Shown one piece after another: positions 317 through 15,426 of a stretch of 64,000 bases of DNA (the first letter of the stretch is position 1; the number at the start of each line of letters is the position of its first letter). Made by a program: the position numbers and the translations under genes. A model generated the notes under the pieces. It searched no databases and was not told where the DNA came from. It saw only the letters and a program-made list of their open reading frames with translations. The stretch is from Anatilimnocola floriformis (GTDB taxonomy: Bacteria; Planctomycetota; Planctomycetia; Pirellulales; Pirellulaceae), in the NCBI RefSeq assembly GCF_024256385.1, contig NZ_JAMLFW010000002.1, positions 806,001 to 870,000 on the forward strand, given 5' to 3'.

Positions 317-718
317 CTACGGCAAGTGCAGTTCCTTCTTGCCGGTGATCTGATCAACTTCGTGGGTCAGCCGAACAGCCTCACGTGCTCGCTGCTCATC
401 CTCAAATTTTTGCACCTTCGTGTACCAGAAGTACCCGCCGATGCCTGCGATTAACAGCCCTGCGAACGTGAATACTGCACACGAGTTCATAGCGAAGTAA
501 GCATTTCTCGACTCCGTCGCGAGATGTTTTTCCCAGAACTCTTTCTCCAATCCTTGCTGCTGCTGCGCACGCAGTAGATTTCCAACATTCTCACGAAGCG
601 ATCGATTGAAATAGGCGGAATTGCTCCAGATGCCTATCGCGCTGGCCACGGCCAGCAATGTGCCGCATGTGGTAATCCACTGGTAGAGATGTCCGTTGGG
701 AAGGTTGGGCAACATCAC
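317..718 (-). CDS. small two-span membrane protein, unknown function
   Basis: A 133-residue protein with two hydrophobic segments, about residues 14-31 (starting WITTCGTLL) and 79-99 (starting SCAVFTFAG). Between them is a charged, Gln-rich linker that may form a short coiled coil (residues about 35-75). The tail after the second span is charged and should lie in the cytoplasm if both ends face inward. I do not recognise a family. It stands alone, divergent from the large surface-protein gene at 1096 and separated from it by about 380 bases. The start at 718 is the first ATG of the frame. It is accepted as a gene because of its length, coherent membrane topology and lack of any competing frame. 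Confidence 0.6.
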   Translation of the reverse strand: MMLPNLPNGHLYQWITTCGTLLAVASAIGIWSNSAYFNRSLRENVGNLLRAQQQQGLEKEFWEKHLATESRNAYFAMNSCAVFTFAGLLIAGIGGYFWYTKVQKFEDEQRAREAVRLTHEVDQITGKKELHLP

Positions 719-1095
719 GAGCCTCCATTGCTGCGAAAGTAAAATCTTTAGAAACGATTAATCGACGAGCGGCATGACGCGTCCCGAAAGGTGATGAGAG
801 CAGGCACATGCTAGCGGCGATAAGTTCATGCGGTCTTAACACATCCGTCTCTTTAATAATAGCAAACGAACCATATAATATATTTCGATTCCGCAATTCA
901 TTTATTTGACAAGGTATGGCGTCATATAAGAAACCCAACCGGAGGATTATCGAGACTCCCAGCCGGTTTGGACGCCGGTGCTCCTACCACAGAAGGCGAC
1001 TTAGGAACGAGCTGCCTTCACTCAGTGGCCTCACTTGAAGCCCACTGCGAATAAACCCCGCCTCATTTTTCTCTTGATTGCAGATGGGTTGAACC
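719..1095. other. intergenic leader before the 2287-residue surface protein
   Basis: A divergent intergenic region. It is locally AT-rich around 850-930 and contains a perfect TATAAT at 874-879, but no convincing -35 box lies at the right distance. At 935-971 an imperfect inverted repeat (CCAACCGG pairing with CCGGTTTGG across a 20-base loop) could form a hairpin in the leader of the downstream gene. I see no coding potential and treat both signals as tentative. Confidence 0.3.
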
Positions 1096-4000
1096 ATGTT
1101 AAATCGCCGAAGTTGCATTGCGCGCACACGTCGCCTGTTCCTCGAGTCTCTGGAGACTCGACTTCCTTTGGCAACATTAAGCGACTCAGGTGGACCGACA
1201 CTATTGATGACGCTGAGTGCAAACGAAGGGCTGACCTTATCGTCCGCAGGGGGCAACTATTCATTTATCAGCAATCAGACATTTGTGAATGGCGGAGTCA
1301 GTCAAGTCGCAGACTTTTCGGCGTTCTCGAGTTCGACCCTGAGTCTGAACGATCTAGCCCAGTATTCAGCGATCAATATTTTCGACGCCGATGCTAACGC
1401 CTCAGTGACATTCGCTAATAGCGGATCGAACAGCTTTGCAAGTGGCATCGCGGTCGTTCTCGATCATCCTGCAGCCGGCTCGATTGTATTCGAGGGCACG
1501 ACCGCTCTTTCAGGATCGAACTATCTGAGTGTTTCTACGAGCAGGAATATCGAAGTTCATAGCGGCGCTAGCGTAAGCACATTCGACGGAAGCTTATCAC
1601 TTCTCGCAAATCAGCAACTTACCCCGACTGCTGGTTCGTTCGTCGGCGTCCAAATCTCAAATTCTCAAGTCAAAAGCACGGGTGTCGGAAGCGTAACCGT
1701 TAAGGGGCGAGGTGGCACAAGCAGTGCGAATCTCAATCATGGCGTGTTTCTAGAATCGAGCGGATCTCTGATCACATCGCAAGGCGGTGCGATCGCAGTG
1801 GATGGGGCCGGGGGAGGAAACGGGACCAGCGTTTCAAACCATGGAGTTTTTGTCGAAGGAACGATTTTCAATGCGAGCGCTAGCGGGACGGTGACTGTCC
1901 GAGGTATCGGTGGGAACACAACTGGATCCGACAGCGATAGCAACATTGGAGTTTTTGTTCCGCGCGCCGACGCTCGCATTTCGTCGAATGGCGGAGCCGT
2001 CGCCATCGAAGGAACTGCCGGTGGAGCAGGAAGCGGGATCGGCAATTTCGGTGTCCAACTCGGCGGCACGATCAGCAGCAGCGGTACCAGCACCTCGTCT
2101 ACCGTGACCGTGACGGGCACTGGTGGGCGCACAAGTGGGTATACGAACCATGGTGTCGTGCTATCGGCGCCTGCCGCACACATTACCTCCAGTGCGGGAG
2201 CTGTGCTTGTTGTAGGAACAGGAGGCGGGGTGGGGGCGAGCACTAGCAATCACGGTGTGTATTTCGACGCAGTGGGCGTGATTGACAGCTCCGGGCCGTT
2301 GGCCACTGTCACTGTTCGGGGATTTGGCGGCAATACCACGGGCACGGGCGGATTCAACGATGGAGTGGTAGTTGTCGGGCCGGCATCCCACATAAGCTCG
2401 AGTGGCGGCTCTGTCTCCGTTGAAGGGTACGGTGGCGGAGCTGGAGCGAGCACCGACAACATCGGAGTGTTGGTCGTCAACGGTGCAGCGATTACTAGCG
2501 AGGGCACCGCGGCACCTGTGAATGTTATGGGCGGCGGCGGCAATATTTCCGGGAGCGGCGGGCGCAATTTTGGTGTTTCGCTGATTGCTGCAGCTGCGCA
2601 GATTTCTTCCGCAGGAGGTGCAATTGCAGTTACCGGGACGAGCGGAAGTGGGGCAACCAGTTCCGCAGTTCGCACAGAGCTTGGCGGAAAGTTCATCGGT
2701 GTAGCGTCTGCAGTGATCACCGTGACTGCTGATTCGATCGAATTCCTTTCTTCAACCTCGATCGACGCTGGCAACAGTCCAGTCGTTCTCAGGCCCAAGA
2801 CTGCCGCATTCGCGATCGATTTAGGAGGAGCTGATGTTCTTGCTGGGAGTGGATCTGGTGCGTTGGGATTGACCGATGGCGAGCTCGGTTCCGTGGTGGC
2901 GGGAACAGTCCAAATTGGTGACTCAGGCACTGGAGCGATTGTCGTGAGCGCGCAACTCACATCGGTGAATGACCTGACGCTGGTCACAAGCGCACAGCTA
3001 ACCTCGAGTCAAGGCATCCTGATGGCACTCAACAAGAGTCTTGTCGTCAATGCCGGCGGAACGATCAGTTTGCCGAGTAGTACGAGCGATCTCATAGCTA
3101 GTGGGACCGGATCGATCTCATTGACCACGACGAGAAACATTTCGCTGGGCCTATTTGCGAGTATCACTACAGCAAGTGGTGACCTGTCGTTGAGTGCCAA
3201 TCAGCAAGTTGCTCCGTCGACCGGATCCTTTGTTGGTATCGAGATCATCGGTGGAACGATCAACGTCGGTAACGGTAACTTATCCATCAAAGGTCGTGGC
3301 GGGGACAACTCGTCGAACAACTACGGCGTCTTCGTGAGAGGATCCCAAGGGCAAGTGATGTCGACTGGCGGCGCAATCCTCGTGGAGGGGAGGGCTGGGG
3401 GAAGTGGCGGCGGCAACTCGAATTTTGGCGTGTACCTCCTCTCCGGCGCAGGAATCTCTAGCGCGGGGAGCATGTCGACAGCGACGGTCACTGTGAAGGG
3501 CTACGGCGGCAATTTCAATGGCAATGGTGGCAGTAACAACGGAGTGGTAGTTGAACAGTCTGACGCGTTCATCAGATCAAATGGTGGCGCGTTGCTCGTT
3601 GAGGGAACGGGAGGGGGTGGCGGTGGTAGCGGGAACAACTACGGCGTCCACGCAATGGGCGGAGTGATCGAAAGTACGGCGGCGGCCGTCACCGTCAAGG
3701 GATACGGAGGAAATCTGAGTGGAGCGGTCGGTTCGGACAACTACGGTGTGCTTGTCCGCGGTTCCTCGGGACTAATCTCGGCGTTCAGTTCTGTAGTCGT
3801 ACAAGGCACCGGGGGAGGGACCGGCAACAGCTTCAACAATTTCGGCGTCTACTTGTTGTCGGGCGGGACAATCACGAGCACTGGCACTGTGGCCAGTTCA
3901 ACTGTTGCTGTCTCGGGAAATGGCGGGAACAGTACGGGGGCTGGAAATACCAATTTTGGAGTCTTCATCGAAAACTCTGCCGCGACGGTCAGTTCTAGCG

Positions 4001-7000
4001 GTGGGGCAATCGAAATCACTGGGATCAGCGGGAGCGGCGCTACTAGTCCCGCAATTTCACTGCAAAACACTGGCAGAATATTGGGGACGTCAGCTAACGC
4101 GATGGTGACCCTAGTCGGGGATTCGATGGATTTTCTGCCCAGCACATCCATCAATGCGGGATCCAATTTCGTCACTCTCAAGCCGCGGACTGCAGGCACT
4201 CTGATCAATTTAGGAGGCGACGACGGTTTGATTGGAAGCCCCTTAGTTCTTGGGCTAACTGATGCTGCGATTGATCGCGTTACTGCGGGAACACTCCAGA
4301 TTGGGGTTCCGAGTAGTGGCACGATCAACGTCACTTCCGCAATCAGCTATGAGGGCAACCTCACGTTGGTGACGGGTGGCGGATTGTCTGGAAGCGCCGG
4401 CCTAACGACCGGATCTGCGACCGCCACAACGCTTCGAGTTCAACAAACCGGCAATTCGACTTACACCGGTGTCCTCGGTGGCAACACTACGAATGCAAAC
4501 AACTTCCGCCTGATAAAGGAAGGTGCTGGCAGCTTAATTTTGACAGCCGCTCACACGTATGCGGGTAACACGTTGGTGAACGCAGGCGAATTGCGAATCA
4601 ACGGTTCGCTCGCGGACACAAGCGAAACTCTAGCGCAGACCGGCGGAACTGTGGGCGGAACGGGGGTGCTCAACAATTTACTCAATGCAAGTTCCCTGAG
4701 TACTATTTCACCGGGCAACGGCATGATCGGTACGTTGACGGTAAACCATTCTGCACTCTCAGGGTTGCAAATGGGCAGCCCGAGTCAACTAAACATTGAG
4801 CTCGGCGGAATCGCGTCTTACGACAAATTGATCGTGAACGGCACCATTTCTCTTTCTGCTGGCGCTACACTCAACCTGTCTTCATTCAATGGCTATGCAC
4901 CCGCGCCAAACTCTACATTCGTGTTCGTCGTTAACGACTCTAGCGACCCGATTGTCGGGACTTTTGTGGCAGGAGCTGGGAGTAGTCTTGTTCCGGGCAC
5001 CGTGCTAACCGAGGGCACGCTTGTCAGTTCGAACTTCCTGGGAAGCGGCTTGCCTGCCTATATCACTTATCTAGGAGGCGATGGCAATGACGCTGCGATC
5101 ACTCTCGCTGGCGGACAAATCGAAATCACGAGCGGTGCAACGGCGAGTATTCCAGAAAACAGCGTGGCGGCCGCTTACACGATTCATGCCGAGTTCCTCG
5201 GCCCGGGAGGTACGATTGCCTACGGCATTTCTGGAGTCGATGCGGCGCGATTCCAGGTGAATGGCAGTTCGGGAGCAATCACATTCGTAGCACCTCCCAA
5301 CTTTGAGAATCCCGTCGACTCTGGATTCAACAATACCTACGACATCGTTGTGGTTGCATCAGCAGGACAATTGACCGCCACTAAGCCAGTGGTCATCACC
5401 GTTACCGATGTCAATGAGTCTCCGATGATCGCCGCACAAACTTTCTCGATTCCAGAGAGTGTTTCGATCGTAGTTAACGGGACCTTCGAATATCCCCATA
5501 CGAATCCGGCAAATGGCCTTCCTTTCGGCTGGCAAAGAACAGGCAGCGTCGAAGTAATCGGGGAGGACTCTACTTCGGGCGCCGGTCCGGCATTCGATGG
5601 TGAACAATTCGTGGATCTGAACGGCGAGGGAACCGGCGGCGTTTCTCAAGTGCTGGCAACGGTTCCCGGCCACTCGTACTCCTTGACGTTTAGTTATGCC
5701 AACAATTACGTGTGGACAAGTCCGTCCAATCCTGCGACTGCGCTCGTTAGCATTCGAAACAATTCGACCGACCTAGTTCCGGCGTTCTCTATTTCTCATG
5801 GCTCATCTAACAGCTTAGGCCTGAATTGGACGCTTCATGCGGTCAACTTTACCGCTGCTGGCTCAAGCACCACTTTGCAATTTCTATCGACGATTCCGAT
5901 CGGTGACGGCGGCATTTACATCGATGGGGTCTCTGTTGTCGACCAGACAATGGGCACCGTGAACGGCAGTGTTGTCGGCACCGTCAGCAGCAGCGACGTC
6001 GACATCAGCGATACCAAGACTTTCGCAATCACTGGCGGAAATTCATCTAACGCTTTCGCGATTCACCCCACCACGGGATTGCTCACGGTCACAAATGGCT
6101 CACTGCTGAACTTTGAGGAGAGGCCGACGTATGTCTTGATGGTTTCCGTGACTGACGCCGGTGGGTTGACTGCGACAAATAATGTGACGATCAACGTTAC
6201 GAACCTCAATGAGGCTCCTATCGTTGCCTCGCAATCATTTTCAATCGCCGAAAACTCGCCCAATGGCACATTGGTCGGCACTGTCCTCGCGTTCGACATG
6301 GACCAGGCAGATTCGAGGACTTTCGCAATTACAGCCGGAAATCTGACCGGTGCTTTCACGATTACCGCGAACACTGGCGCAATTAGGGTGGCCGATAGCG
6401 TGCTCCTGGACTACGAGTCCGTTTCCAGCTTTGCGCTGACGGTGCGAGTCACCGACAGTGGTGGTCTTTCGAGCACCAGCGTAGTGACTGTGCTGCTCAC
6501 GGATGTACGCTACGATCCGGCGCTGCTGAACGTCACTTCCTTCTCTTTGAATCCGGTACTGGCTGCCGCAGGGGTAGTCGCCACTCCTCATTTCAGCGCG
6601 GCGGGCTCTGTGGTTATGGACATCAGCGCAGGAACGACATTCAGCACTACTCCAGGCGGATTGTCGCTGGGCGCGTTCACGGCTGTGGTCCCGGCAACTG
6701 CCGGCTATCGCACCAAGGGCACGCTCAACCTTGGCAATGTTGCCGTCAACGGAGGCGCGCTGACTGCAGTTGGCGACGACGGGGTGCTCGTAGTTGCATA
6801 TTTCGGCGATGTGACCGGGAATGGCACCTACACTGGACAAGATGCTTCGTATCTCGCACGGGTTTCTGTTGGCATCGATAACGGCTTCGAGCAATTCAAG
6901 TTGCTCGACCCAAATCTCATTGGAGACATCACTGGAAACGGCGACATAACGGCCCAAGATGTGTCATACGCAATGCGGACAGCTGTAGGCATATCCGTTG

Positions 7001-7959
7001 CAGAAGTTCCCGCGCCGCTGCCAACTGTTTCCTTGGTGCAGGGAGGACCAGACCCGAAACTTTCCGTGCCGCAAACGTTGGCCGCGTCACCAGGTGAATC
7101 ACTGGTTATTCCCGTCGACATCGATAGCATCGTAAACCTCACAGGCAACGGTTTGATGTCGGCCGATCTGGTCATATACTTCGATCCCTCGGTGCTAGAG
7201 ATCACTGAGGTTGCGCTGGGTAGCCTCATTGCGAGTCGGGGCTGGTCCATTTCTTCACAGATCAATCCTCTCGCAGGTCGGATCGACCTTTCGCTGGCAG
7301 GCACGAGCCCGATCGAGGGCGTATTCCGCGGGCAACTCGTTCAGTTGCATGCAAACGTGAAGTCAGACGCACGTTCGGGATCATTCGCTATCAATCTCGC
7401 CGCAAGTTCTCGCTATCGAACAACTCAGCTCAACGAAGGTTTCCTCACGCTGATTCCGGCGCCGACGGACGATCCGAATGACCCAATCGATGGTCGTCTC
7501 ACCGTTCAAAGCCGGGAGCCAGGGGGCTCTCAGCAGGGCCAAGCCAGGCTATCCGGGGATCACCTTCTCATCACAGGGACAGACGGAGACGATAGTATTA
7601 TCGTTGGACAGCTGCTCGATGGCCGCTTTCGAGTGCGTCTCGGACGCCAACACCTCGGGGACTTCGTAGCAGCTGGAGTCGCAATTGATTCCTTGAGAGG
7701 AGAGGACTTTGTCTACGCCTCTCCATTTGCATCGGCCGTCGTTGTAACAGGAGAATTGACGGAGAGTGACCACGTCTTCGGTGGAGAGAACACACAAATT
7801 GTGAACTCACAAACCCCTGAAGTGAGTCAACAAGGAGCGAGCAGCGGCACGCTAAATGATTCGGCACTTTTGCAACTCATTTCAAACTGGAGCAATGAGT
7901 TCAGTGACATTAATCCAAACGGACATTCCTCGCGTACTGGACTGTCACGCAGGCGATGA
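1096..7959 (+). CDS. giant exported multidomain surface protein with cadherin, dockerin and cohesin domains
   Basis: A 2287-residue extracellular protein, probably adhesive or structural. It starts with an Arg-rich segment and a LESLETRLPLA motif of the LEPR-XLL type (about residues 17-27). Residues about 144-625 and 675-1085 are two copies of a Gly/Ser/Thr-rich beta-helix region with recurring NHGVF/NFGVY and GGAI phrases, like filamentous haemagglutinin repeats. An autotransporter-associated strand repeat follows (about 1112-1195), then cadherin-like domains (about 1338-1443 and 1709-1805). A second cadherin is interrupted by a DUF642-like jelly-roll (about 1459-1618). A dockerin with two GD(V/I)TGNG calcium loops (about 1902-1968) precedes a cohesin-like domain (about 1989-2122). 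The domain assignments are by eye. Gene ends are clear; there is no strong Shine-Dalgarno sequence, which is common in this phylum. The ligand is unknown. Confidence 0.88.
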   Translation: MLNRRSCIARTRRLFLESLETRLPLATLSDSGGPTLLMTLSANEGLTLSSAGGNYSFISNQTFVNGGVSQVADFSAFSSSTLSLNDLAQYSAINIFDADANASVTFANSGSNSFASGIAVVLDHPAAGSIVFEGTTALSGSNYLSVSTSRNIEVHSGASVSTFDGSLSLLANQQLTPTAGSFVGVQISNSQVKSTGVGSVTVKGRGGTSSANLNHGVFLESSGSLITSQGGAIAVDGAGGGNGTSVSNHGVFVEGTIFNASASGTVTVRGIGGNTTGSDSDSNIGVFVPRADARISSNGGAVAIEGTAGGAGSGIGNFGVQLGGTISSSGTSTSSTVTVTGTGGRTSGYTNHGVVLSAPAAHITSSAGAVLVVGTGGGVGASTSNHGVYFDAVGVIDSSGPLATVTVRGFGGNTTGTGGFNDGVVVVGPASHISSSGGSVSVEGYGGGAGASTDNIGVLVVNGAAITSEGTAAPVNVMGGGGNISGSGGRNFGVSLIAAAAQISSAGGAIAVTGTSGSGATSSAVRTELGGKFIGVASAVITVTADSIEFLSSTSIDAGNSPVVLRPKTAAFAIDLGGADVLAGSGSGALGLTDGELGSVVAGTVQIGDSGTGAIVVSAQLTSVNDLTLVTSAQLTSSQGILMALNKSLVVNAGGTISLPSSTSDLIASGTGSISLTTTRNISLGLFASITTASGDLSLSANQQVAPSTGSFVGIEIIGGTINVGNGNLSIKGRGGDNSSNNYGVFVRGSQGQVMSTGGAILVEGRAGGSGGGNSNFGVYLLSGAGISSAGSMSTATVTVKGYGGNFNGNGGSNNGVVVEQSDAFIRSNGGALLVEGTGGGGGGSGNNYGVHAMGGVIESTAAAVTVKGYGGNLSGAVGSDNYGVLVRGSSGLISAFSSVVVQGTGGGTGNSFNNFGVYLLSGGTITSTGTVASSTVAVSGNGGNSTGAGNTNFGVFIENSAATVSSSGGAIEITGISGSGATSPAISLQNTGRILGTSANAMVTLVGDSMDFLPSTSINAGSNFVTLKPRTAGTLINLGGDDGLIGSPLVLGLTDAAIDRVTAGTLQIGVPSSGTINVTSAISYEGNLTLVTGGGLSGSAGLTTGSATATTLRVQQTGNSTYTGVLGGNTTNANNFRLIKEGAGSLILTAAHTYAGNTLVNAGELRINGSLADTSETLAQTGGTVGGTGVLNNLLNASSLSTISPGNGMIGTLTVNHSALSGLQMGSPSQLNIELGGIASYDKLIVNGTISLSAGATLNLSSFNGYAPAPNSTFVFVVNDSSDPIVGTFVAGAGSSLVPGTVLTEGTLVSSNFLGSGLPAYITYLGGDGNDAAITLAGGQIEITSGATASIPENSVAAAYTIHAEFLGPGGTIAYGISGVDAARFQVNGSSGAITFVAPPNFENPVDSGFNNTYDIVVVASAGQLTATKPVVITVTDVNESPMIAAQTFSIPESVSIVVNGTFEYPHTNPANGLPFGWQRTGSVEVIGEDSTSGAGPAFDGEQFVDLNGEGTGGVSQVLATVPGHSYSLTFSYANNYVWTSPSNPATALVSIRNNSTDLVPAFSISHGSSNSLGLNWTLHAVNFTAAGSSTTLQFLSTIPIGDGGIYIDGVSVVDQTMGTVNGSVVGTVSSSDVDISDTKTFAITGGNSSNAFAIHPTTGLLTVTNGSLLNFEERPTYVLMVSVTDAGGLTATNNVTINVTNLNEAPIVASQSFSIAENSPNGTLVGTVLAFDMDQADSRTFAITAGNLTGAFTITANTGAIRVADSVLLDYESVSSFALTVRVTDSGGLSSTSVVTVLLTDVRYDPALLNVTSFSLNPVLAAAGVVATPHFSAAGSVVMDISAGTTFSTTPGGLSLGAFTAVVPATAGYRTKGTLNLGNVAVNGGALTAVGDDGVLVVAYFGDVTGNGTYTGQDASYLARVSVGIDNGFEQFKLLDPNLIGDITGNGDITAQDVSYAMRTAVGISVAEVPAPLPTVSLVQGGPDPKLSVPQTLAASPGESLVIPVDIDSIVNLTGNGLMSADLVIYFDPSVLEITEVALGSLIASRGWSISSQINPLAGRIDLSLAGTSPIEGVFRGQLVQLHANVKSDARSGSFAINLAASSRYRTTQLNEGFLTLIPAPTDDPNDPIDGRLTVQSREPGGSQQGQARLSGDHLLITGTDGDDSIIVGQLLDGRFRVRLGRQHLGDFVAAGVAIDSLRGEDFVYASPFASAVVVTGELTESDHVFGGENTQIVNSQTPEVSQQGASSGTLNDSALLQLISNWSNEFSDINPNGHSSRTGLSRRR

Positions 7960-8005
7960 GTCTTTTTGAACTGCAAACAAATATCCCGCCCGGTCGACGA
8001 ATAGC

Positions 8006-8377
8006 TTGCAATCAAATTGCCAAAGTAAGGTTGGTTTAGTTACATGCCTAAACTTTGGAGTATCGATCAGGGGCCGCGAGGTAAAGTCAGGCCCTAACAA
8101 GTCCGCCGCTATCCGCGATTACAAAGCCGCCAATCCGAAAGAGGTGTCTGAGGCGTTGAGCAAATCCGGATTCGACATCTTCGCTCAGTTTGTCAGCACG
8201 GTCCTATCTAATGCGAAGAAGAAGGGCGGCAAGGTTGGCAAGCGAGGCCGGAAACCGATGGCGGTTCCTGTGGATGGCCTGCAGCAATTGATCCAGGTGA
8301 AAAAGCTTGTGGATCAGATCGGCGGGTTGGAGAAGGCCAAGGCCGCGGTCGATGCACTTGCCCAGATCCTCGGGTAA
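8006..8377 (+). CDS. small basic protein resembling planctomycete DNA-binding-like proteins; start uncertain
   Basis: The body contains SGPNKSAAIRDY followed by NPKEVSEALSKSG, a pattern of small planctomycete proteins that look like a winged-helix or 'restart' type helical domain. A Lys/Arg-rich stretch (KKKGGKVGKRGRKP) and a helical C-terminus rich in Leu, Val and Lys follow. A nucleic-acid-binding role is inferred from charge and the resemblance, not demonstrated. The start is doubtful. The only in-frame initiator upstream is TTG at 8006, whereas an ATG at 8044 lies in another frame. The first 25 codons therefore may not be translated, or there may be a frameshift at the 5' end. It sits between the surface-protein gene and the sigma factor gene at 8435, in the same direction. 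Confidence 0.6.
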   Translation: MQSNCQSKVGLVTCLNFGVSIRGREVKSGPNKSAAIRDYKAANPKEVSEALSKSGFDIFAQFVSTVLSNAKKKGGKVGKRGRKPMAVPVDGLQQLIQVKKLVDQIGGLEKAKAAVDALAQILG

Positions 8378-8395
8378 GCAGTTCGCAGAAGATTT

Positions 8396-8422
8396 TTAGA
8401 CAAATCTGCTGTGGTCGCGCAT
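8396..8422 (+). promoter_or_regulatory. two-block promoter-like motif before the ECF sigma gene
   Basis: TTAGACAAAT and GTCGCGCAT are separated by 8 bases. An identical pair with the same 8-base gap occurs at 9345-9371 before the GspF operon, with an unrelated spacer sequence. Two conserved blocks at fixed spacing are what an ECF sigma factor recognises (-35 and -10). Placement before its own gene and before the putative target operon fits autoregulation. If this is the promoter, the sigma mRNA would be nearly leaderless, since ATG at 8435 lies 13 bases beyond the motif. Function is inferred. Confidence 0.6.
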
Positions 8423-8434
8423 CATGTAGGGCGC

Positions 8435-9001
8435 ATGAGTGCGACCCAAGCTTTTTCCGCGCGAGTTCGTGAGTGCACCGACCAGTTGGCGGTGACGGGC
8501 GTTGCTGCGCTGGGAATGCTGTATGACTTGACTGCGCAAAGACTTGTGCGGTTCGCGGTAACTGTATCCTATCACCAGCACGACGCCGAAGACGCGGTGC
8601 AAGCAGTTCTGGCCCGGCTGGCTACGAGCCCGCAGCAATTGAAGGACGTCGGCTGTCCCTGGGCTTATCTGCTGCGAATGGTTCGCAACGAAGTCATCGC
8701 CATCCACCGACGGCAAAAGCGCTGCACCGCAGCCGGCGATTTGTCGGATTTGATCACGCGCTGTCCCATTGATGAGGCTGAACGCGAAGAATCCCATCGC
8801 GCAGTCTGGGCTGCTCTTCGATCGCTGCCGGTTGATCAGGCCGAAGTGGTGGTTCTCAAAATCTGGGAGGAGATGACATTCGCCCAAATCGGCGAGATTC
8901 TCGAACTCTCGCTGAATACGGTTGCCAGCCGGTATCAGTATGGCATCGCCAAGTTGACCAGCCGACTGACCAAGCAACCCACGAGGGTGCGGCATGGATA
9001 A
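8435..9001 (+). CDS. ECF-family RNA polymerase sigma factor
   Basis: A 188-residue sigma-70-family protein of the extracytoplasmic-function type. Region 2 is visible in the first half (HDAEDAVQAVLARLA, then WAYLLRMVRNEVIAIHRR), and region 4 in the second half (LPVDQAEVVVLKIWEEMTFAQIGEIL, with the helix-turn-helix ending in LNTVASRYQYGIAKL). It should direct RNA polymerase to promoters such as the motif repeated at 8396 and 9345. I chose ATG at 8435 over GTG at 8411, because the GTG would lie inside the promoter-like motif. The stop overlaps the start of the next gene by 8 bases, so the two are translationally coupled. That is the usual arrangement for a sigma and its regulator. Confidence 0.9.
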   Translation: MSATQAFSARVRECTDQLAVTGVAALGMLYDLTAQRLVRFAVTVSYHQHDAEDAVQAVLARLATSPQQLKDVGCPWAYLLRMVRNEVIAIHRRQKRCTAAGDLSDLITRCPIDEAEREESHRAVWAALRSLPVDQAEVVVLKIWEEMTFAQIGEILELSLNTVASRYQYGIAKLTSRLTKQPTRVRHG

Positions 9002-9332
9002 CTTTGAATTCGAAGCGAACGAAATTGAGGAACTGCTGCGCTCCGCCGGCGAATATGTCCAGCCGTCTGACGATCTGCTGCCTGCGGTACTCGAGCAGGC
9101 CCGCTTGGCGCGCGCTGAATGGCGTGTGCAAAACTGGGTCTGGTTTGTGATGTTCAACATCGCGCTTTGCATCTTGCTTGTTGGTCACCTGCGTCTGGAG
9201 CCCTCGCGTGATTTTGAAATCATGGGCGCTCCCTCGTCGATCGCTCAGCAGGAGAATCCTGGCTGGCACGCGGTTGACCGCTTCACTGCACTTCGCCGTC
9301 GCCAGGCAGCTGTGCTGCCGTCGCCGAAGTAA
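8994..9332 (+). CDS. small single-span membrane protein, candidate anti-sigma factor
   Basis: A 112-residue protein with an acidic N-terminal cytoplasmic part (MDNFEFEANEIEELL, about residues 1-45). One membrane segment follows at about 48-64 (VWFVMFNIALCILLVGH), then a short outer tail. It overlaps the ECF sigma gene by 8 bases. Coupling to a sigma gene, small size and a single membrane span behind a cytoplasmic helix-rich region fit an anti-sigma factor. No zinc-binding HxxxCxxC motif of the ZAS class is present, so the assignment rests on context only. A second copy of the promoter-like motif lies right after it, separating it from the GspF genes. Confidence 0.7.
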   Translation: MDNFEFEANEIEELLRSAGEYVQPSDDLLPAVLEQARLARAEWRVQNWVWFVMFNIALCILLVGHLRLEPSRDFEIMGAPSSIAQQENPGWHAVDRFTALRRRQAAVLPSPK

Positions 9333-9344
9333 TCAGCAAAATTC

Positions 9345-9371
9345 TTAGACAAATTGGCGCCCGTCGCGCAT
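9345..9371 (+). promoter_or_regulatory. two-block promoter-like motif before the GspF/pseudopilin operon
   Basis: TTAGACAAAT, an 8-base spacer, then GTCGCGCAT: the same two blocks and spacing as at 8396-8422 before the sigma gene. It lies in the gap between the candidate anti-sigma gene and the first GspF-like gene, whose ATG is 49 bases further on. The simplest reading is that the neighbouring ECF sigma factor drives the operon from here. Confidence 0.6.
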
Positions 9372-9419
9372 CCGCTAATCAGTCCATGGCGGTTGAGTAC
9401 CAGCGAGACGCGGCGTCCG

Positions 9420-10448
9420 ATGAAGACGGCAACACTTCCAGACATCATTGCGTTGAACGATCGCCTCGCAGCGATGGCGGCTGCAGAGGTTCCGCTAAGT
9501 CGCGATTTAGTTCGTTCCAATGCGGAACTGCCGACAACGCTGCACGAGGTGAGCGCTGCCGTTTCGCGCCGCGTCGAAGCTGGGCAAACGCTAGAGCAAT
9601 CGCTGGCTGCCGAAGAACGCCTCACGCCTGCCTACCATTTGTTGTTGCAGATCAGCGCGAACAGCAACGATCGTGGCGGCGCCCTCAGCAGGCCGCAGCG
9701 ACTAGCCAACTCCAGTGAGAACTCTGCACAAATACTGTCGCGAGCGCTGACCTATCCTCTGATTGTTTGCAGCCTGGCTTATTGCGGATTGGCGCTCTTC
9801 TGCTTGTATCTTGTGCCTACGCTCGAGCAACTGTACGGGAATCTACGCATCCCCACGGGTTGGGCCCTGCGCCTGCTGACTGGCCTGCGAATAACGCTGC
9901 CATATTGGATCGCATTGCCGCCTGTGCTGCTGAGTTTGATCGTCTGGTTGCTCCGGCGCCAATCGAACTCAGGCGGCTGGCAGCAAGCAGGCGCATGGTT
10001 GCCGGGAATGCGACGCGTCATTCGCGAACAACAATGCAGCGCCTTCGCCGACTCGATCGCTAATTTGCTGGCAGCAGGAATGCCGTTTGAGAGTGCGCTG
10101 CGGCTCAACATCGAGACCAGCAACGATCCGATTTTTTCTCGCAGCCTCGGCGCGAGTGCGGCCTCGATGACGCGCAACGCACACACTGCCGTCGAAGACG
10201 CGTTCGTGCACTTGCCTCCATTCCTGCGCTGGGCCCTCTTTCGGAGTGAGCCCCTGCTGGATCGCGTAAGTGCGTTGCGTTTGGCAGCCGATCTGTATTA
10301 CGAAGCGGCGCAAAGGCGAATCTCGCGAATGCGAATTGCCGTTCCTATCGTGTTCAGCGCGGTGCTCGGCGGTGGTGTGACACTCCTCTATGCCCTGGCT
10401 TTGTTTGTACCCCTGGCCCATTTGCTGCGCTCGATCGCAGCGAGCTAA
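9420..10448 (+). CDS. type II secretion F-like (T2SF) inner-membrane platform protein, first of three
   Basis: A 342-residue polytopic protein of the GspF/PilC family, whose members form the inner-membrane platform linking the assembly ATPase to the pseudopilus. Two helical T2SF repeats are visible, the second around residues 195-320 (CSAFADSIANLLAAGMPFESALRL is the typical start of a repeat). Hydrophobic segments lie near residues 130-150 and 170-190 and at the C-terminus. ATG at 9420 is preferred to TTG at 9354, which falls inside the promoter-like motif. It is the first gene of an operon that continues through 14956. It lacks the YxYxA-type N-terminal strand region seen in the next gene, so it may be a shorter, specialised paralogue. 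Confidence 0.8.
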   Translation: MKTATLPDIIALNDRLAAMAAAEVPLSRDLVRSNAELPTTLHEVSAAVSRRVEAGQTLEQSLAAEERLTPAYHLLLQISANSNDRGGALSRPQRLANSSENSAQILSRALTYPLIVCSLAYCGLALFCLYLVPTLEQLYGNLRIPTGWALRLLTGLRITLPYWIALPPVLLSLIVWLLRRQSNSGGWQQAGAWLPGMRRVIREQQCSAFADSIANLLAAGMPFESALRLNIETSNDPIFSRSLGASAASMTRNAHTAVEDAFVHLPPFLRWALFRSEPLLDRVSALRLAADLYYEAAQRRISRMRIAVPIVFSAVLGGGVTLLYALALFVPLAHLLRSIAAS

Positions 10449-10471
10449 AAGCTCCTCGGCACGAAAGTCCA

Positions 10472-11656
10472 ATGCCTCAATATCGATACCAGGCCCTGAA
10501 CGCCAACCAGCAGCCAGTGAGCGGTGAGATTACCGCGGACGGCTTTGCGGACGCACTGAGCCAGCTGGCAGCGCAGGGCCTGGCCGTTCAAGCGCTGGTC
10601 GATATGGCGGTCTCGGAGCAAGCCGGATTGGCAGTATCGAGTGTCGAGGACCAAGTCGCCTGGCAACAGCAACTCTTAAAATTGCTCGAGCGCGGCCGTG
10701 AACTTCTGCCGCCACTCAAAGCTTTTGTGGAAGAGTTGCCAGTTGGACAGCGTCGCCGGCAATTGGAACTGCTGACGAGTACGCTCGAGCGCGGCAACAT
10801 TCCCGCCGATGCCATGGCCACCCTGCAATCGCTTCCTGGCTATTGGATACCGCTGTTGAGCGCCGCAACTGCCTCGCGCGATCCTGGCCGGATCCTGCGC
10901 GAGTTTCTCCGCGAGACCGAACAAGCCGAGCAACTACGCCGGCAGTGGCGGCAGACCCTGGCGTATCCATTGCTGCTGATAAGCTTGGCAGTAGCGGTGC
11001 TGATCGGACTTAGCATCATCGTCATCCCCATTTTTCGCAACATCTTCGATGGGTTCGGCATTCGCGTTCCGCTACCCACGCGTTTGGTACTGGTGATCTC
11101 GGAGTGGATCACCAGCGGCCGGGTTCTGGTGGTGATCGTTGTTGGCGGATTGCTCAGCTTCGGTCTTTATCGCGCCTGCCGTTGGTTGTCGCCGGCGTTG
11201 CGCGAATCGTGGGCCGATCGCTTCGCGCTGTGGATTGGTCACTCGACGGCAATTGCTCGCTTCGCGCAATTCACTGCCGACTTGCTCGAAGCAGAGGTCA
11301 GCCCTGAACATGCGTTGCGTCTTGCAGGCCTGGCGACCGGCAGCGGCCCGATTCAGCGCGCGGCCGTACGAGTTGCCGCGGGATTGACCAGCTCAACCGA
11401 AGAAGCCTGTGAAAAGAATCGACGTGTGCTGACGCGCACCGTGCATTACGCCCTGGTCACTCCCAACTCGAAAACCGGCCGCATGCGCTTGCTGCGTGAA
11501 ATCGGCGCGAGCTATGCCGAACGAATGAGTTGGCGACTGTCATGGGCCCGAGGTTTTGTCGAGCCGCTAGCGATCTGCCTTGTCGGCTTGATTGTTGGCG
11601 GCGTCGCGTTCGCTTTGTTTCTCCCGCTATTCAGTCTGTTACACGCACTTGCTTGA
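10472..11656 (+). CDS. type II secretion F-like (T2SF) platform protein, second of three
   Basis: A 394-residue GspF/PilC-family protein. The N-terminus (MPQYRYQALNANQQPVSGEI) is the characteristic small domain of this family, so this is the most canonical of the three copies. Two T2SF repeats follow, with membrane segments at about residues 165-190, 205-230 and 365-390. A large cytoplasmic part carries the AQFTADLLEAEVSPEHALRL repeat start. It lies 23 bases after the first copy and 2 bases before the third. Its role would be to couple pseudopilin polymerisation to an ATPase that must be encoded elsewhere, because no GspE-like gene is in the window. Confidence 0.85.
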   Translation: MPQYRYQALNANQQPVSGEITADGFADALSQLAAQGLAVQALVDMAVSEQAGLAVSSVEDQVAWQQQLLKLLERGRELLPPLKAFVEELPVGQRRRQLELLTSTLERGNIPADAMATLQSLPGYWIPLLSAATASRDPGRILREFLRETEQAEQLRRQWRQTLAYPLLLISLAVAVLIGLSIIVIPIFRNIFDGFGIRVPLPTRLVLVISEWITSGRVLVVIVVGGLLSFGLYRACRWLSPALRESWADRFALWIGHSTAIARFAQFTADLLEAEVSPEHALRLAGLATGSGPIQRAAVRVAAGLTSSTEEACEKNRRVLTRTVHYALVTPNSKTGRMRLLREIGASYAERMSWRLSWARGFVEPLAICLVGLIVGGVAFALFLPLFSLLHALA

Positions 11657-11658
11657 TC

Positions 11659-12747
11659 ATGGATACCTGGTTCCCCACTTTTTTTCGACTGGCGACGAGT
11701 GCGTCGTCGTTCACGCTCTTCTGGCCGTGGACGACTACGTTCGCGCAGCAGCGAGCATTACTGCGGCTCATTGCGGTTGCTCAAGAGGAGAACTTGCCGC
11801 TCGCGCCGTTGCTCGAGCAGTGGGCCGATGACGAATCAGGGCTGCAACAATTTCGCGTGCGGCGTTTGGCCAGGCTAATCGCTGGTGGGCGTTCTGTGGC
11901 GGATGCGGCCGAAGCTGTGCCGGGTGTGCTCCGAGATGAAGACATTCTGACGCTCCGATTCGACGCTCAATCAGGCACGCGCACGGCAGCCGTTCGCGCC
12001 AGCCTCGTTCATCCCGCTGCCGTCGGGTTCCAGGCTTGGCAATATTTCCGCAGCATGTTCATTTATTTCGGCACTGTGCTGCCCATTAGCCTGGCGTTGA
12101 TTCTGTTTGGCCAGTTACGGATCCTGCCGCGCCTGGATCGCATTTTCAGCGATTTTGGCAGACGCAGGCCAGCCATATTTGCCTGGTCTGTGAATTCGCT
12201 CGAGCCGTACTCGAACCTGCTGCTGATTTCGGCGCTACTCTTGTTGATTGTGATCATTTGGCTGTTTTCGACTCGCATGGGACGTCTGCTCCGCTGGTCG
12301 CTCGCCGGCAGCCTCTTTCGCTTCTTGCGCGAATGGCGTGCTGCCGATGTGCTGCAGAAATTGCAAGTTGCCGCCTCAGCCGGTCGGCCAATCCCAGGGG
12401 CACTATCGACACTCGCCCAGTTTCACCCAGATCCAAAGTTGCGCCATGAGTTGCTCGTGGTCCGCAACGACGTCGAGCAGGGATTGCCGGTTTGGCAAAG
12501 CATGTCGCAGGTTGGCTTGCTTTCGCCCGCCGAGGCAAACTTGATCGTTGTGGCCGAGCAACAAGGATCGCCGACTTGGGCGCTCGAACAACTCGTCGAA
12601 GTCAAACAGCGCCGCGTCGCCGCGCGCCTGGAAAAGGTAGGGGAGTTCTTACTGCCCGCATTCGTGCTGCTGATGGCTGGCCTGGTCATCTTTCAAGCCA
12701 GCCTGCTATTCGTGCCCCTGGTCACTCTTCTGGAAGGGTTGCTGTGA
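11659..12747 (+). CDS. type II secretion F-like (T2SF) platform protein, third of three
   Basis: A 362-residue T2SF-family protein. Features include an N-terminal helical domain with QQRALLRLIAVAQEENLPLAP, membrane segments at about residues 137-157, 188-208 and 335-360, and a second repeat with ADVLQKLQVAASAGRPIPGAL. The ATG at 11659 follows the previous stop by two bases, and the last four bases overlap the start of the next gene, so translation of the whole block is coupled. Three consecutive F-like genes are unusual, since most systems have one. They may form a hetero-oligomeric platform or result from local duplication and divergence. Confidence 0.83.
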   Translation: MDTWFPTFFRLATSASSFTLFWPWTTTFAQQRALLRLIAVAQEENLPLAPLLEQWADDESGLQQFRVRRLARLIAGGRSVADAAEAVPGVLRDEDILTLRFDAQSGTRTAAVRASLVHPAAVGFQAWQYFRSMFIYFGTVLPISLALILFGQLRILPRLDRIFSDFGRRRPAIFAWSVNSLEPYSNLLLISALLLLIVIIWLFSTRMGRLLRWSLAGSLFRFLREWRAADVLQKLQVAASAGRPIPGALSTLAQFHPDPKLRHELLVVRNDVEQGLPVWQSMSQVGLLSPAEANLIVVAEQQGSPTWALEQLVEVKQRRVAARLEKVGEFLLPAFVLLMAGLVIFQASLLFVPLVTLLEGLL

Positions 12748-13154
12748 GTCGTTTGTTCCGATTCAAAAATCGACGCCAGGGAACCAGTTCGCTGGAAGTA
12801 GTGGTGGCCTTCACGCTGCTCAGTGCAGCGCTGGTCGCGGCCGCTCCTTTGATTGTCGCGCACAACCGGCTGATGGTTGCTCAGCGGCACCACCGGATAG
12901 CAATGGCGGAAATTTCCAACCAGATGGAAAGCTTGAGTCTGTTGGCAACGGGGGAATTGCCCACGGCCGTCGAACGATTAACGCCGTCGGAATTTGCCGT
13001 GCAGCGATTGCCGGGGGTTGTTATCCGCGGCGAACTGAGCACGTCGTCGTTCGGTCAGCATGTCGCGCTCGAACTGTCGTGGGACGAAGTTAACCGGCAA
13101 GCAGCGCCAGTGCGTTTGACGACTTGGCTCTTCCCTGAGGAGTCATCGCCATGA
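12744..13154 (+). CDS. GspI-like minor pseudopilin
   Basis: A 136-residue protein with a short basic leader and a type IV prepilin signal: RRQG, then TSSLEVVVAFTLL, with Gly at -1 and Glu at +5 relative to the cleavage point. A single N-terminal hydrophobic helix is followed by a beta-rich globular tail. GTG at 12744 overlaps the preceding stop by 4 bases. Position and signal fit a GspI-type minor pseudopilin, the first member of the GspI-J-K tip complex. Family assignment relies on the N-terminus and gene order, because the C-terminal halves of these proteins diverge strongly. Confidence 0.72.
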   Translation: MSRLFRFKNRRQGTSSLEVVVAFTLLSAALVAAAPLIVAHNRLMVAQRHHRIAMAEISNQMESLSLLATGELPTAVERLTPSEFAVQRLPGVVIRGELSTSSFGQHVALELSWDEVNRQAAPVRLTTWLFPEESSP

Positions 13155-13672
13155 AACATCGACGCGGTATTAGTTTGGTGGAACTAATCGTGGTTATGTC
13201 GGGATGCGCTGTGCTGCTCAGCTTGAGCGCTGCCTTGTTGCAGCGCGTGATGCAGGCACAAATTCGCTCACGAGCCGATGCTGATTTGCAGCGTACGCTG
13301 CTCCGTCTCGATCAAATCGTTCGCAACGATGTGCACACTGCTGCGGATGCCGAAGTCGATCCTACAAAACTCCCGGCCGGCGTTGTACTGCGGCTCGTGT
13401 TGCCAGATTCAGTAATCGAGTATCGCCATCAGAAAACCGAATTCCAGCGAGTGCAACTCAGCGGCAACGACGTCAAATCGCGCGAGACATTTTCATTACC
13501 ACGCGAGATTGAGCTGGAAATCAAGCGTCCTCGTCCACGACTGATTGTGCTTTCGATCCGAACCGATGATGAGCCCTTCATCGACGTGCCGCCGGTCTAC
13601 GCACAGATCGAAGCTGCTTTGCCAGACAATCGGCTGCGCGCAGCTAAGCATGCGGAGACCAATGATGAGTAA
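13151..13672 (+). CDS. GspJ-like minor pseudopilin
   Basis: A 173-residue protein with the prepilin signal RRG followed by ISLVELIVVMSG: Gly at -1, Glu at +5, then a hydrophobic helix of about 20 residues. The remainder is beta-rich, with a GspJ-like pattern (regularly spaced charged strands such as RETFSLPREIELEI). ATG overlaps the previous stop in an ATGA arrangement. It would be inserted in the inner membrane, processed by prepilin peptidase and built into the pseudopilus tip with its neighbours. Confidence 0.72.
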   Translation: MKHRRGISLVELIVVMSGCAVLLSLSAALLQRVMQAQIRSRADADLQRTLLRLDQIVRNDVHTAADAEVDPTKLPAGVVLRLVLPDSVIEYRHQKTEFQRVQLSGNDVKSRETFSLPREIELEIKRPRPRLIVLSIRTDDEPFIDVPPVYAQIEAALPDNRLRAAKHAETNDE

Positions 13673-14069
13673 AACGTTGCGCCACAATCGTCGCGGAGCA
13701 ATTCTCATCGTGGCCCTGCTGTGCCTGCTGGTGATCATGTCGCTGCTGGGCACGATGCTGTTGGCAGCGCTGCAGAGCACTCGGCAACTGCATGCCGAGC
13801 GTGACTTGCGGCAGTGTGAATTGCTGCTCCAAGCCGGGATCGATCGAGCCTTGACTCAGATTGCCAAACAGCCCGATTACCGCGGCGAAACGCACGAGTT
13901 TTCTGCAGCCGACATTATCGATCAGGGGCCAGGACGCCTCGTCATCGAAGTCACGCCGGCCACCGCCGATTCGCGCGTGCAAATCCACATCGACGCTGAG
14001 TATCCGGCTGACAGCGAATTTTCTGTCCGCCGTTCGCGCACTCTTTCCATCCCAACTAATACCAATTAA
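13662..14069 (+). CDS. GspK/PilX-like minor pseudopilin
   Basis: A 135-residue protein starting at ATG 13662 (a second ATG follows directly), overlapping the preceding gene by 11 bases. The leader RHNRRG is followed by AILIVALLCLLVIMSLL. There is no Glu at +5, which is a hallmark of GspK and PilX among pseudopilins. A helix with LHAERDLRQCELLLQAGIDR follows, a typical PilX/GspK phrase after the membrane helix. The protein is shorter than classical GspK (about 300 residues), so it is closer to PilX-type N-terminal proteins. Together with the two genes before it, it completes an I-J-K-like set. Confidence 0.68.
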   Translation: MMSKTLRHNRRGAILIVALLCLLVIMSLLGTMLLAALQSTRQLHAERDLRQCELLLQAGIDRALTQIAKQPDYRGETHEFSAADIIDQGPGRLVIEVTPATADSRVQIHIDAEYPADSEFSVRRSRTLSIPTNTN

Positions 14070-14095
14070 TTCATTCGATCGCCGAGGAGAAGACC

Positions 14096-14956
14096 ATGGT
14101 CACCCGTTCCAACCGCCGAGCATTCACGCTGATCGAGCTACTCGTGGTAATCGCCATCATTGGTGTGCTGATCGCTCTGCTGCTGCCCGCAGTGCAGGCT
14201 GCGAGAGAAGCGGCGAGGCGCACTTCGTGCCTCAATAACGTCACGCAACTGGGACTCGCCGTGCACAACTTCGAATTCCATTTTGAAAAGCTTCCGCCGG
14301 GCACTGTCAACGACGAGGGGCCGGTGCGGAATGAAGCCAAGGGAACTCATGTGAGCTGGATTGTGAAGATCCTCCCTTACCTGGAACAAAGAGCGCTGGC
14401 CAAACGCTTCCATGAAGCCGACGGCGCTTATGCCGATGTGAACGCACCCGTACGAGGAGCACAGATCCGCGTCTTGCAATGCGCCTCGGACGGCGTGCCG
14501 ATGACGAACCAGGCCGGAACGATTGCCCGCAGCAACTATGCCGGCTGTCATCACGATGCCGAAGCTCCGATCGACAAAGACAATCGCGGCTTGCTCTTTC
14601 TCAACAGCCAGGTACGGCACTCGCAGATTTTCGACGGCAGCTCGTCGACCTTGTTGATTGGTGAGATGCTCGATTCGCCGGACGGCTTGGGATGGGTCTC
14701 GGGAACTCGCGCCACGCTGCGGAACACGGGCGCACTGGAAACCGGAGAGGCATACCTGGCCGCGGGGAACTCACTTGGCGGCGACAAGCAAAAACTCGGA
14801 CCACTCTATGTGGGCGGTTTTGGGAGTTATCACCCGGGTGGAGTGAACATCGGACTTGCTGATGGCTGCACGAGGTTTCTGTCGCTGCAGATTGATCCAC
14901 AAACGTTACGCCAGCTTGGAAATCGTGCGGACGGGGAGATCATGAAGCTCTATTGA
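14096..14956 (+). CDS. DUF1559 prepilin-like protein
   Basis: A 286-residue member of the DUF1559 family, which is greatly expanded in planctomycetes. The N-terminus shows the type IV prepilin signal (RRAFTLIELLVVIAIIGVL, with Glu at +5 and Ala instead of the usual Gly at -1). It continues with the conserved LLPAVQAAREAARR helix and the SCLNNVTQLGLAVHNFE segment. The C-terminal part contains the family phrase around FGSYHPGGVNIGLADG. A GAGGAG Shine-Dalgarno sequence lies at 14083-14088. As last gene of the operon it may provide the main pilin-like subunit for the three platform proteins and the minor pseudopilins, although DUF1559 function is not established. Confidence 0.9.
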   Translation: MVTRSNRRAFTLIELLVVIAIIGVLIALLLPAVQAAREAARRTSCLNNVTQLGLAVHNFEFHFEKLPPGTVNDEGPVRNEAKGTHVSWIVKILPYLEQRALAKRFHEADGAYADVNAPVRGAQIRVLQCASDGVPMTNQAGTIARSNYAGCHHDAEAPIDKDNRGLLFLNSQVRHSQIFDGSSSTLLIGEMLDSPDGLGWVSGTRATLRNTGALETGEAYLAAGNSLGGDKQKLGPLYVGGFGSYHPGGVNIGLADGCTRFLSLQIDPQTLRQLGNRADGEIMKLY

Positions 14957-15426
14957 TCAAATGGAGTTTCATACTGCCCAGCTAGTCGTTTTGAGATAGG
15001 CTCTAAGATATGCGACACGTTGACGCACTGAGGTGACATTGCTTGTCAGACTCCACGGAGTACTTAAGGTTACTCGCAAGCTTTTGTGAAATAATCTCTC
15101 TCAAATAGTTGACATTCACGCTTGAGAGTCAGTAGAACCTACGCCGCATCAAAGATGCACTGGGGCGATCTGAGGGATCAAGCTGCATGATATGCAGCTA
15201 ACGGAATGAACGCCGTGAATGTGTTACAGGCTGGCGTTGTCATTATTTCACTCGACCGGCGTGAAGCTGGTTTGTTTGATATTTTCTTTTCAGATTTTCT
15301 GCGAGTTGATTGACCCAAGTTGTCAATCAGTGCGTGTCTTATCTGTAACTCGGGTTTGAAGTCCGAGTGTCGTCATTTCTTTTGTTAACTGGGTTGTCGC
15401 GCGCTTAAGCATAAGGATATTGCACC
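14957..15426. other. 470-base leader region of the RHS gene
   Basis: No coding potential on either strand. It is AT-richer than the flanking genes. It contains one plausible promoter (15109-15138) and a weak AAGGAT ribosome-binding sequence about 10 bases before the ATG at 15427. No terminator hairpin was found after the DUF1559 gene. Confidence 0.4.
15109..15138 (+). promoter_or_regulatory. possible sigma-70-type promoter of the RHS gene
   Basis: TTGACA at 15109-15114 and TAGAAC at 15133-15138 are separated by 18 bases. This would give a leader of roughly 280 bases before the giant gene. The -35 box is perfect but the -10 box matches only partly, so this is a weak prediction. Confidence 0.3.

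Follow-up and report, generated by a model that had tools for sequence, protein, structure and literature searches.

Which genes does an extracytoplasmic function (ECF) sigma factor of a planctomycete control, and can its promoters be recognized from sequence? Planctomycetes carry many such factors, and to our knowledge few regulatory links are known for them or for the DUF1559 families. The question is raised by a locus of Anatilimnocola floriformis (Planctomycetota; Pirellulaceae), in a 64,000-nucleotide stretch of contig NZ_JAMLFW010000002.1 (positions 806,001 to 870,000; assembly GCF_024256385.1) that was analyzed as a whole and is referred to here as the window. In this locus, the gene of an ECF sigma factor is followed by that of a small membrane protein and by a cassette of GspF-like and pseudopilin-like genes, namely F1, F2, F3, I, J, K and G. 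An earlier note on this DNA had reported the same two-block motif before the sigma gene and before the cassette, and had predicted that the sigma factor autoregulates and directly controls the operon at 9420-14956. Comparative sequence analysis, gene order and a link in trans support this prediction. We consider it very probable that the motif serves as promoter for the sigma factor of this locus (8435-9001), and that this factor activates both itself and the pseudopilus cassette.

A two-block motif repeated in the window

The motif, TTAGACAAAT-N8-GTCGCGCAT, occurs twice on the forward strand, 949 bp apart (promoters 1 and 2 in Table 1). The blocks, of 10 and 9 bases, are identical in both copies, while the 8-base spacers, CTGCTGTG and TGGCGCCC, are unrelated; coordinates, blocks, spacing and spacers are all exactly as the earlier note had described them. 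Promoter 1 lies 12 nt from the ATG of the sigma gene, and promoter 2 lies 48 nt from that of F1. When both strands of the window were searched with up to 3 mismatches, these 2 matches were the only ones; among 100 dinucleotide shuffles the mean was 0.03 and the maximum 1, i.e., none contained two. The same tolerance applied to the 27-mer in the 8.93-Mb genome yielded 4 matches, all exact: the two window sites and their twins in a duplicated segment. That is, the genome holds no unrelated match, a concern that the note had raised.

The duplicate is inverted and about 15 kb long, with window positions 318-14982 corresponding to G000:C2:423413-439140 in blocks of 98.4 and 98.2% identity (6458-7566 are unmatched), and it carries a giant repeat-protein gene together with the entire sigma/pseudopilus unit. 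The two copies are a mosaic. F3 and I show no difference, F2 and J have diverged by 5.0 and 5.9%, respectively, and there are zero differences from 7960 to 9419, a region that comprises intergenic DNA, motif 1, the sigma gene, the membrane-protein gene, motif 2 and the F1 leader. This pattern looks like gene conversion. Because the copies do not differ over 7960-9419, the second copy provides no independent evidence of conservation.

Conservation of the motif before sigma genes

The predicted sigma factor consists of a Sigma70_r2 domain (residues 29-96) and a Sigma70_r4_2 domain (residues 122-174), and its matches include no sigma1 or sigma3 family; this composition of sigma2 and sigma4 domains alone is that of the ECF factors (group IV), to which we assign it by sequence. 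Three orthologues are 51-59% identical to it, and the start at 8435 agrees with their alignment; the leftmost listed start of the open reading frame, 8411, falls inside the motif.

Relatives of this protein were collected with an alignment of four sigma factors as query. At least 112 were confirmed in named genomes, and the best 80 of 112 were taken; 25 of these, all with E-values of 4e-14 or weaker, were dropped (24 from other phyla and one distant planctomycete sigma factor, L122). The resulting set comprises 55 planctomycete loci (L063-L116 and L118, with L117 excluded). These loci are partly non-independent, L066/L068 and L088/L090 being near duplicates; L064, L073 and L099 are the same contigs as L043, L044 and L055, which had been read earlier. 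For the motif counts the window and L203, L204 and L205 were added, to give 59 loci; since these three were chosen for their motif, counts are also given for the 55 alone. We recorded the best match to 17 motif positions within 160 bp of each sigma start, with 3919 non-overlapping 160-bp windows from the same loci as controls.

The motif is found with at most 3 mismatches in 17 before 50 of the 59 sigma genes, and with at most 5 before 55 of them; in the smaller set the counts are 46/55 and 51/55. The corresponding numbers of control windows are 0/3919 and 29/3919. The sigma proteins with a conserved upstream motif are 45-61% identical, and the spacers are unrelated. A spacer of 12 was best in 54 loci, and spacers of 9, 15 and 21 in 2, 2 and 1, respectively, with ties counted repeatedly. 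The core conserved across relatives is (T)TAGA(C/T)AAA(T)-N12-GCGCAT, and the GTC at motif positions 19-21 is weakly conserved. Of the 55 sites with at most 5 mismatches, 46 start at -36 to -41. Because this leaves 9-14 bases between site and start codon, the sigma transcript would be near-leaderless. In the more distant family f19, the TAGACAAA block stands before the sigma gene in several loci, L190, L191, L193 and L194 among them, with the second block changed; further loci of this family do not have it. In L115 the sigma match is split across two overlapping frames, likely through a frameshift or an assembly error.

A second site before F1

To score sites before other genes, a matrix was trained on 54 distinct sigma-upstream sites alone, with a threshold score of 10. 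At or above this threshold, a site precedes F1 in 23 of 46 loci, each of these scores being reached by 0 of 200 dinucleotide shuffles. Five loci (L202, L205, L048, L050 and L053) had been added to the F1 set because of their motif or when it was already known; leaving these and the window aside gives 18/40. In 239 regions upstream of the six later cassette genes (F2 to G) the same matrix finds a single site, and this lone match (L089) is the F1 site seen via a misplaced F2 start. The conservation at orthologous loci that the earlier note had asked about is present before both genes, at 50 of 59 sigma genes and 23 of 46 F1 genes.

When the whole gap after the membrane-protein gene was scanned, the share of loci with a site of 10 or more varied with gap length, from 1/5 for gaps below 70 bp through 5/10 for 70-130 bp to 18/25 for longer gaps. 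Such a trend would be expected of a second promoter whose importance grows as read-through declines. L069 has two motif copies, with 2 and 3 mismatches, in the interval separating the membrane-protein gene from F1; relative to the sigma start they lie at +969 and +1154.

A link in trans between motif, sigma factor and cassette

The strict pattern TTAGAYAAA-N12-GCGCAT was scanned in 397 genomes of the class, with the reversed pattern as control. It has 17 sites in 12 genomes, compared with 4 for the control. By coordinates and gene calls, all 17 precede either the sigma gene (11 sites) or F1 (6 sites, the one in G037 at a distance of 558 bp), and all 12 genomes have the sigma factor.

There are genomes in which the sigma gene and the cassette are separated. 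In G006 and G072 they lie about 1.44 and 0.76 Mb apart, on one chromosome each; both ends carry the site, and these genomes have no strict sites besides those preceding the sigma gene and F1. G126 and G124 are draft assemblies in which sigma gene and cassette fall on separate contigs, and each of the two again carries the site (score 19.1 before F1 in G124). These split loci are the strongest evidence linking motif, sigma factor and cassette, because a shared operon position cannot explain them. In L075, F1 is located 3.7 kb beyond the membrane-protein gene, with a site of score 31.7 placed 421 bp before it.

Seven weaker sites were viewed in context (L241, L242, L243, L244 and L246 from genomes with the sigma factor, and L247 and L250 from sigma-less genomes), and no cassette gene was found in the 5-8 kb of sequence read for each. 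Two genomes of genus g11 (G010 and G074) have a site of score 25.5 in common (L241:3349-3375 and, in reverse, L242:2842-2868). It is located toward the end of a long open frame, which the locus edge truncates in both cases (to 1144 and 975 aa). This may be a further target, or it may reflect conservation of the coding sequence.

The pseudopilus cassette and a candidate ATPase

The features of the unit are listed in Table 1. Three proteins match T2SSF over the cut-off, as expected for the GspF/PilC component of a type II secretion system (T2SS) or type IV pilus machine. Protein G has the H-X9-DG C-terminus (pre_pil_HX9DG, E 2.4e-6), and family searches with protein I gave no meaningful match. 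The unit is flanked by open frames of 2287 aa (1096-7959) and 3433 aa (15427-25728); the former lies inside the duplicated segment, and the latter resembles an RHS/YD-repeat protein by eye.

Table 1. Coordinates and supporting matches of the predicted promoters and genes of the unit
Feature	Position	Strand	Evidence
Promoter 1 (predicted), before sigma	8396..8422	+	-35-like TTAGACAAAT 8396-8405; -10-like GCGCAT 8417-8422
ECF sigma factor, 188 aa	8435..9001	+	Pfam Sigma70_r2 E 7.4e-10, Sigma70_r4_2 E 2e-11
Putative anti-sigma factor, 112 aa	8994..9332	+	one predicted transmembrane helix; gene place, conserved cytosolic motif
Promoter 2 (predicted), before pseudopilus operon	9345..9371	+	TTAGACAAAT 9345-9354; GCGCAT 9366-9371
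F1, GspF-like inner-membrane protein, 342 aa	9420..10448	+	T2SSF E 1.7e-13
F2, GspF-like, 394 aa	10472..11656	+	T2SSF E 2e-15
F3, GspF-like, 362 aa	11659..12747	+	T2SSF E 5.3e-15
I, minor pseudopilin-like, 136 aa, GTG start	12744..13154	+	N-terminal pilin-like stretch by eye; conserved position
J, minor pseudopilin-like, 173 aa	13151..13672	+	N_methyl E 0.0029, below cut-off
K, GspK-like minor pseudopilin, 135 aa	13662..14069	+	NCBIfam T2SS_GspK E 1.2e-4, Pfam PilX_N E 0.0061, both below cut-off
G, DUF1559 (SBP_bac_10) pilin-like, 286 aa	14096..14956	+	SBP_bac_10 E 1.1e-49, N_methyl E 1.5e-8

The array of sigma factor, membrane protein, three GspF proteins, three pseudopilin-like proteins and DUF1559 pilin is conserved in relatives. 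F1 follows the sigma gene in 40 of the 55 loci, and all nine genes are present in order in 29; among the 15 loci without F1, 6 end within 2.4 kb. F1 was also searched in 149 genomes of the family, and 20 neighborhoods, mostly top matches, were read: F1, F2, F3, I, J, K and G are in order in 13 of these, several others are cut by contig ends, and the sigma gene is directly upstream in L043, L044 and L055. Carriers include Bythopirellula, Botrimarina, Rhodopirellula, Neorhodopirellula and Adhaeretor; Adhaeretor mobilis HG15A2 (L087) has the site both at its sigma gene and at F1. Across the class, 120 of 397 genomes have a sigma match at E <= 1e-25, and nearly all of these have just one. A conserved neighbor or substrate gene was sought as well and rejected, as no outside gene cluster (frames of 110 aa or more) is conserved around the unit in more than 5 of the 55 loci.

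None of the ten window proteins scanned is a GspE/PilB ATPase. The earlier note had called the operon secretion-like; it does not amount to a whole secretion system, the window operon having no GspE gene. In cassette loci of family f19 a GspE-type ATPase gene lies between the membrane-protein gene and F1 (L187-L189, L193, L194, L198 and L199), as it does in L111 and L112, and cassettes with no adjacent sigma gene can also include the ATPase (L046, L057 and L059). We read the ancestral unit as sigma-anti-E-F1-F2-F3-I-J-K-G. The A. floriformis genome has 17 T2SSE matches over the cut-off, and 1 of 8 examined belongs to the ATPase subfamily of the array. This orphan GspE-like protein (G000:C4:158733-159941, equal to L271:6734-7942) scores 542 against the subfamily, the next protein scoring 340, and it is alone among the genome's proteins in matching at E <= 1e-70. 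Perhaps it is the partner of the cassette; its gene does not have the promoter motif. A role of the motif as promoter of the GspE-like ATPase genes was also considered and found no support: in the 20 ATPase matches scanned (L251-L270, with L271 a wider view of L251), only L253, L260 and L270 score 11 or more, the best 16.2.

The membrane protein

The membrane-protein gene starts before the sigma gene ends, the two sharing 8 bases. An alignment of 37 members shows a cytosolic LExxIRxAxxYVxPSDxLRPxxLExAR stretch, one hydrophobic helix and then a W-x-L-x-E-A-F-like stretch. In a structure model (pLDDT 81, pTM 0.42), helices are predicted at residues 8-18, 29-65 and 89-107, the second of which would span the membrane. 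Its LRPRVLEAAR stretch resembles the helix that ends class I anti-sigma domains. Gene place, overlap and topology together suggest that the protein is probably an anti-sigma factor.

Proposed mechanism and alternatives

From these data we infer that RNA polymerase with this sigma factor would transcribe from both sites, reading TTAGACAAAT as the -35 element and GCGCAT as the -10 element, with 12 bases between TAGACAAA and GCGCAT. Promoter 1 would drive the sigma/membrane-protein pair from a near-leaderless transcript, i.e., positive autoregulation, and promoter 2 would drive F1-F2-F3-I-J-K-G. The single-pass membrane protein most likely keeps the sigma factor inactive until a signal arises in the envelope. 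The output would be a dedicated pseudopilus, or type-IV-pilus-like, assembly cassette, which would have to rely on an ATPase (perhaps the C4 orphan), a prepilin peptidase and any outer-membrane component encoded outside the unit. It is also conceivable, if rather improbable, that the sigma/anti-sigma pair is connected to nothing but itself and one pseudopilus cassette and that the membrane protein senses the state of the pseudopilus (assembly or load), such that the machine controls its own sigma factor. Such feedback would resemble flagellar FliA/FlgM.

Several results weigh against this scheme or parts of it. At the sigma gene, no good motif is found within 160 bp in four loci (L101, L109, L113 and L114), and in L187-L189 of family f19 the order sigma, membrane protein, ATPase, F1-G is kept while the motif is lost or changed. 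Before F1, 23 of 46 regions score below 10. Some of these may be explained by F1 following closely on the membrane-protein gene; L074, L095, L097, L099 (9.5), L101, L102 and L103 have gaps above 130 bp and yet no site of 10 or more, the F1 start being uncertain in L095 and L097. The strict site is present in just 12 of the 120 genomes with the sigma factor; the strict pattern is specific, not sensitive. With up to 3 mismatches, among the matches listed, 31 sigma genomes have 245 against 197 for the reversed pattern, and 31 sigma-less genomes have 208 against 178. Because these counts are near background with and without the sigma factor, only strong sites are informative, and a wider regulon finds no support in the same counts. 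Motif-like sites away from cassettes also occur in two genomes with no sigma match at E <= 1e-25, namely L247 (G123:C2:22394-22420; score 25.9) and L250 (G090:C8:310504-310530; score 20.9). The boxes themselves differ from the common ECF AAC and CGT (PMC8103513, in part), an older criterion that has since been relaxed, the consensus here being TAGACAAA-N12-GCGCAT. Finally, none of the 37 membrane-protein members matches an anti-sigma family, and no Pfam or PDB sequence match points to an anti-sigma factor.

If the sigma factor autoregulates and read-through from promoter 1 accounts for most F1-G transcription, promoter 2 would be a minor or decaying copy. The half of F1-upstream regions that have no good site, oftener where the membrane-protein gene and F1 are close, is consistent with this. 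We nevertheless regard it as unlikely, given that the cassettes of G006, G072, G126 and G124 still carry the site away from the sigma gene, and that both copies in the window, 949 bp apart, are perfect.

Less likely again is that some other regulator, whether activator or repressor, uses the motif as its operator and controls both genes, with the sigma factor merely a target. The sites in the two sigma-less genomes and the missing AAC and CGT boxes are compatible with such an operator. Against it, the blocks are unlike each other and non-palindromic, and with their fixed 12-base spacer and mostly fixed distance to the start codon they resemble -35 and -10 boxes; the strict motif is confined to genomes with the sigma factor (12/12); and no other conserved neighbor gene was found as a candidate regulator. 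At the positions occupied by T-V-K-S-R-L in the solved SigL, the sigma4 helix has T-A/V-A-S-R-Y, a difference that would fit a -35 box other than the usual AAC.

The probability that the repeat is a short functionless copy, arisen by chance or through mobility, is negligible: the whole segment is indeed duplicated with identical tracts, but this explanation is already refuted because the motif is conserved at orthologues, and chance or a dispersed repeat is ruled out by the window, genome, 397-genome and control-window counts.

The reading we favor, a sigma factor that recognizes both promoters, would mean that the factor, its non-standard -35/-10 promoter code and its strict regulon are readable from sequence, with the split genomes revealing the link in trans. 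It would offer a testable switch for one pseudopilus machine and a route to the signal and the cargo, and the sigma/promoter pair could be of use as an orthogonal part.

Comparison with known systems

In the open literature we found no paper that joins a planctomycete (including Pirellula) ECF or other sigma factor with a pseudopilin, and the available parts of PMC7406223, PMC2754498 and PMC8567305 describe no such sigma-pseudopilus system. As far as searched, the promoter code of this sigma factor, a strict regulon limited to its own gene and one cassette, and the cassette of planctomycetes as such are new; both the ECF group and the motif may, though, be catalogued already. The DUF1559 families of planctomycetes, to which protein G belongs, are large, with a group of 68 paralogues in Planctopirus limnophila (PMC10632474, in part).

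About 55% of typical ECF sigma/anti-sigma operons have been established as autoregulated by prediction (PMC8103513, in part). The present unit is like these in that the sigma and membrane-protein genes overlap and the presumed sigma promoter precedes the factor's own gene; it is unlike them in that TAGACAAA and GCGCAT replace AAC and CGT, and in having no recognizable anti-sigma domain. With T2SS and type IV pilus systems (GspE, F, G-K) it shares GspF, pilin-like proteins and, in the arrays of relatives, a GspE-like ATPase, whereas the window has three consecutive GspF genes, places the DUF1559 pilin last and has no GspE there.

The earlier note had taken an ECF-controlled pseudopilus system to be undescribed. 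As a statement about the kind this was too strong, as in Pseudomonas aeruginosa the ECF factor VreI increases expression of the adjacent Hxc type II secretion genes (PMC2729926, in part). The two systems are alike in that an ECF sigma factor and a membrane regulator of it, putative in the present unit, are encoded beside T2SS genes, whose expression VreI raises. They differ in that VreI works together with VreA, a receptor-like protein, and has a wider regulon (Hxc, two-partner secretion and ExbBD), whereas the conserved array has no receptor-like gene, and its strict sites lead to the sigma gene and the cassette alone.
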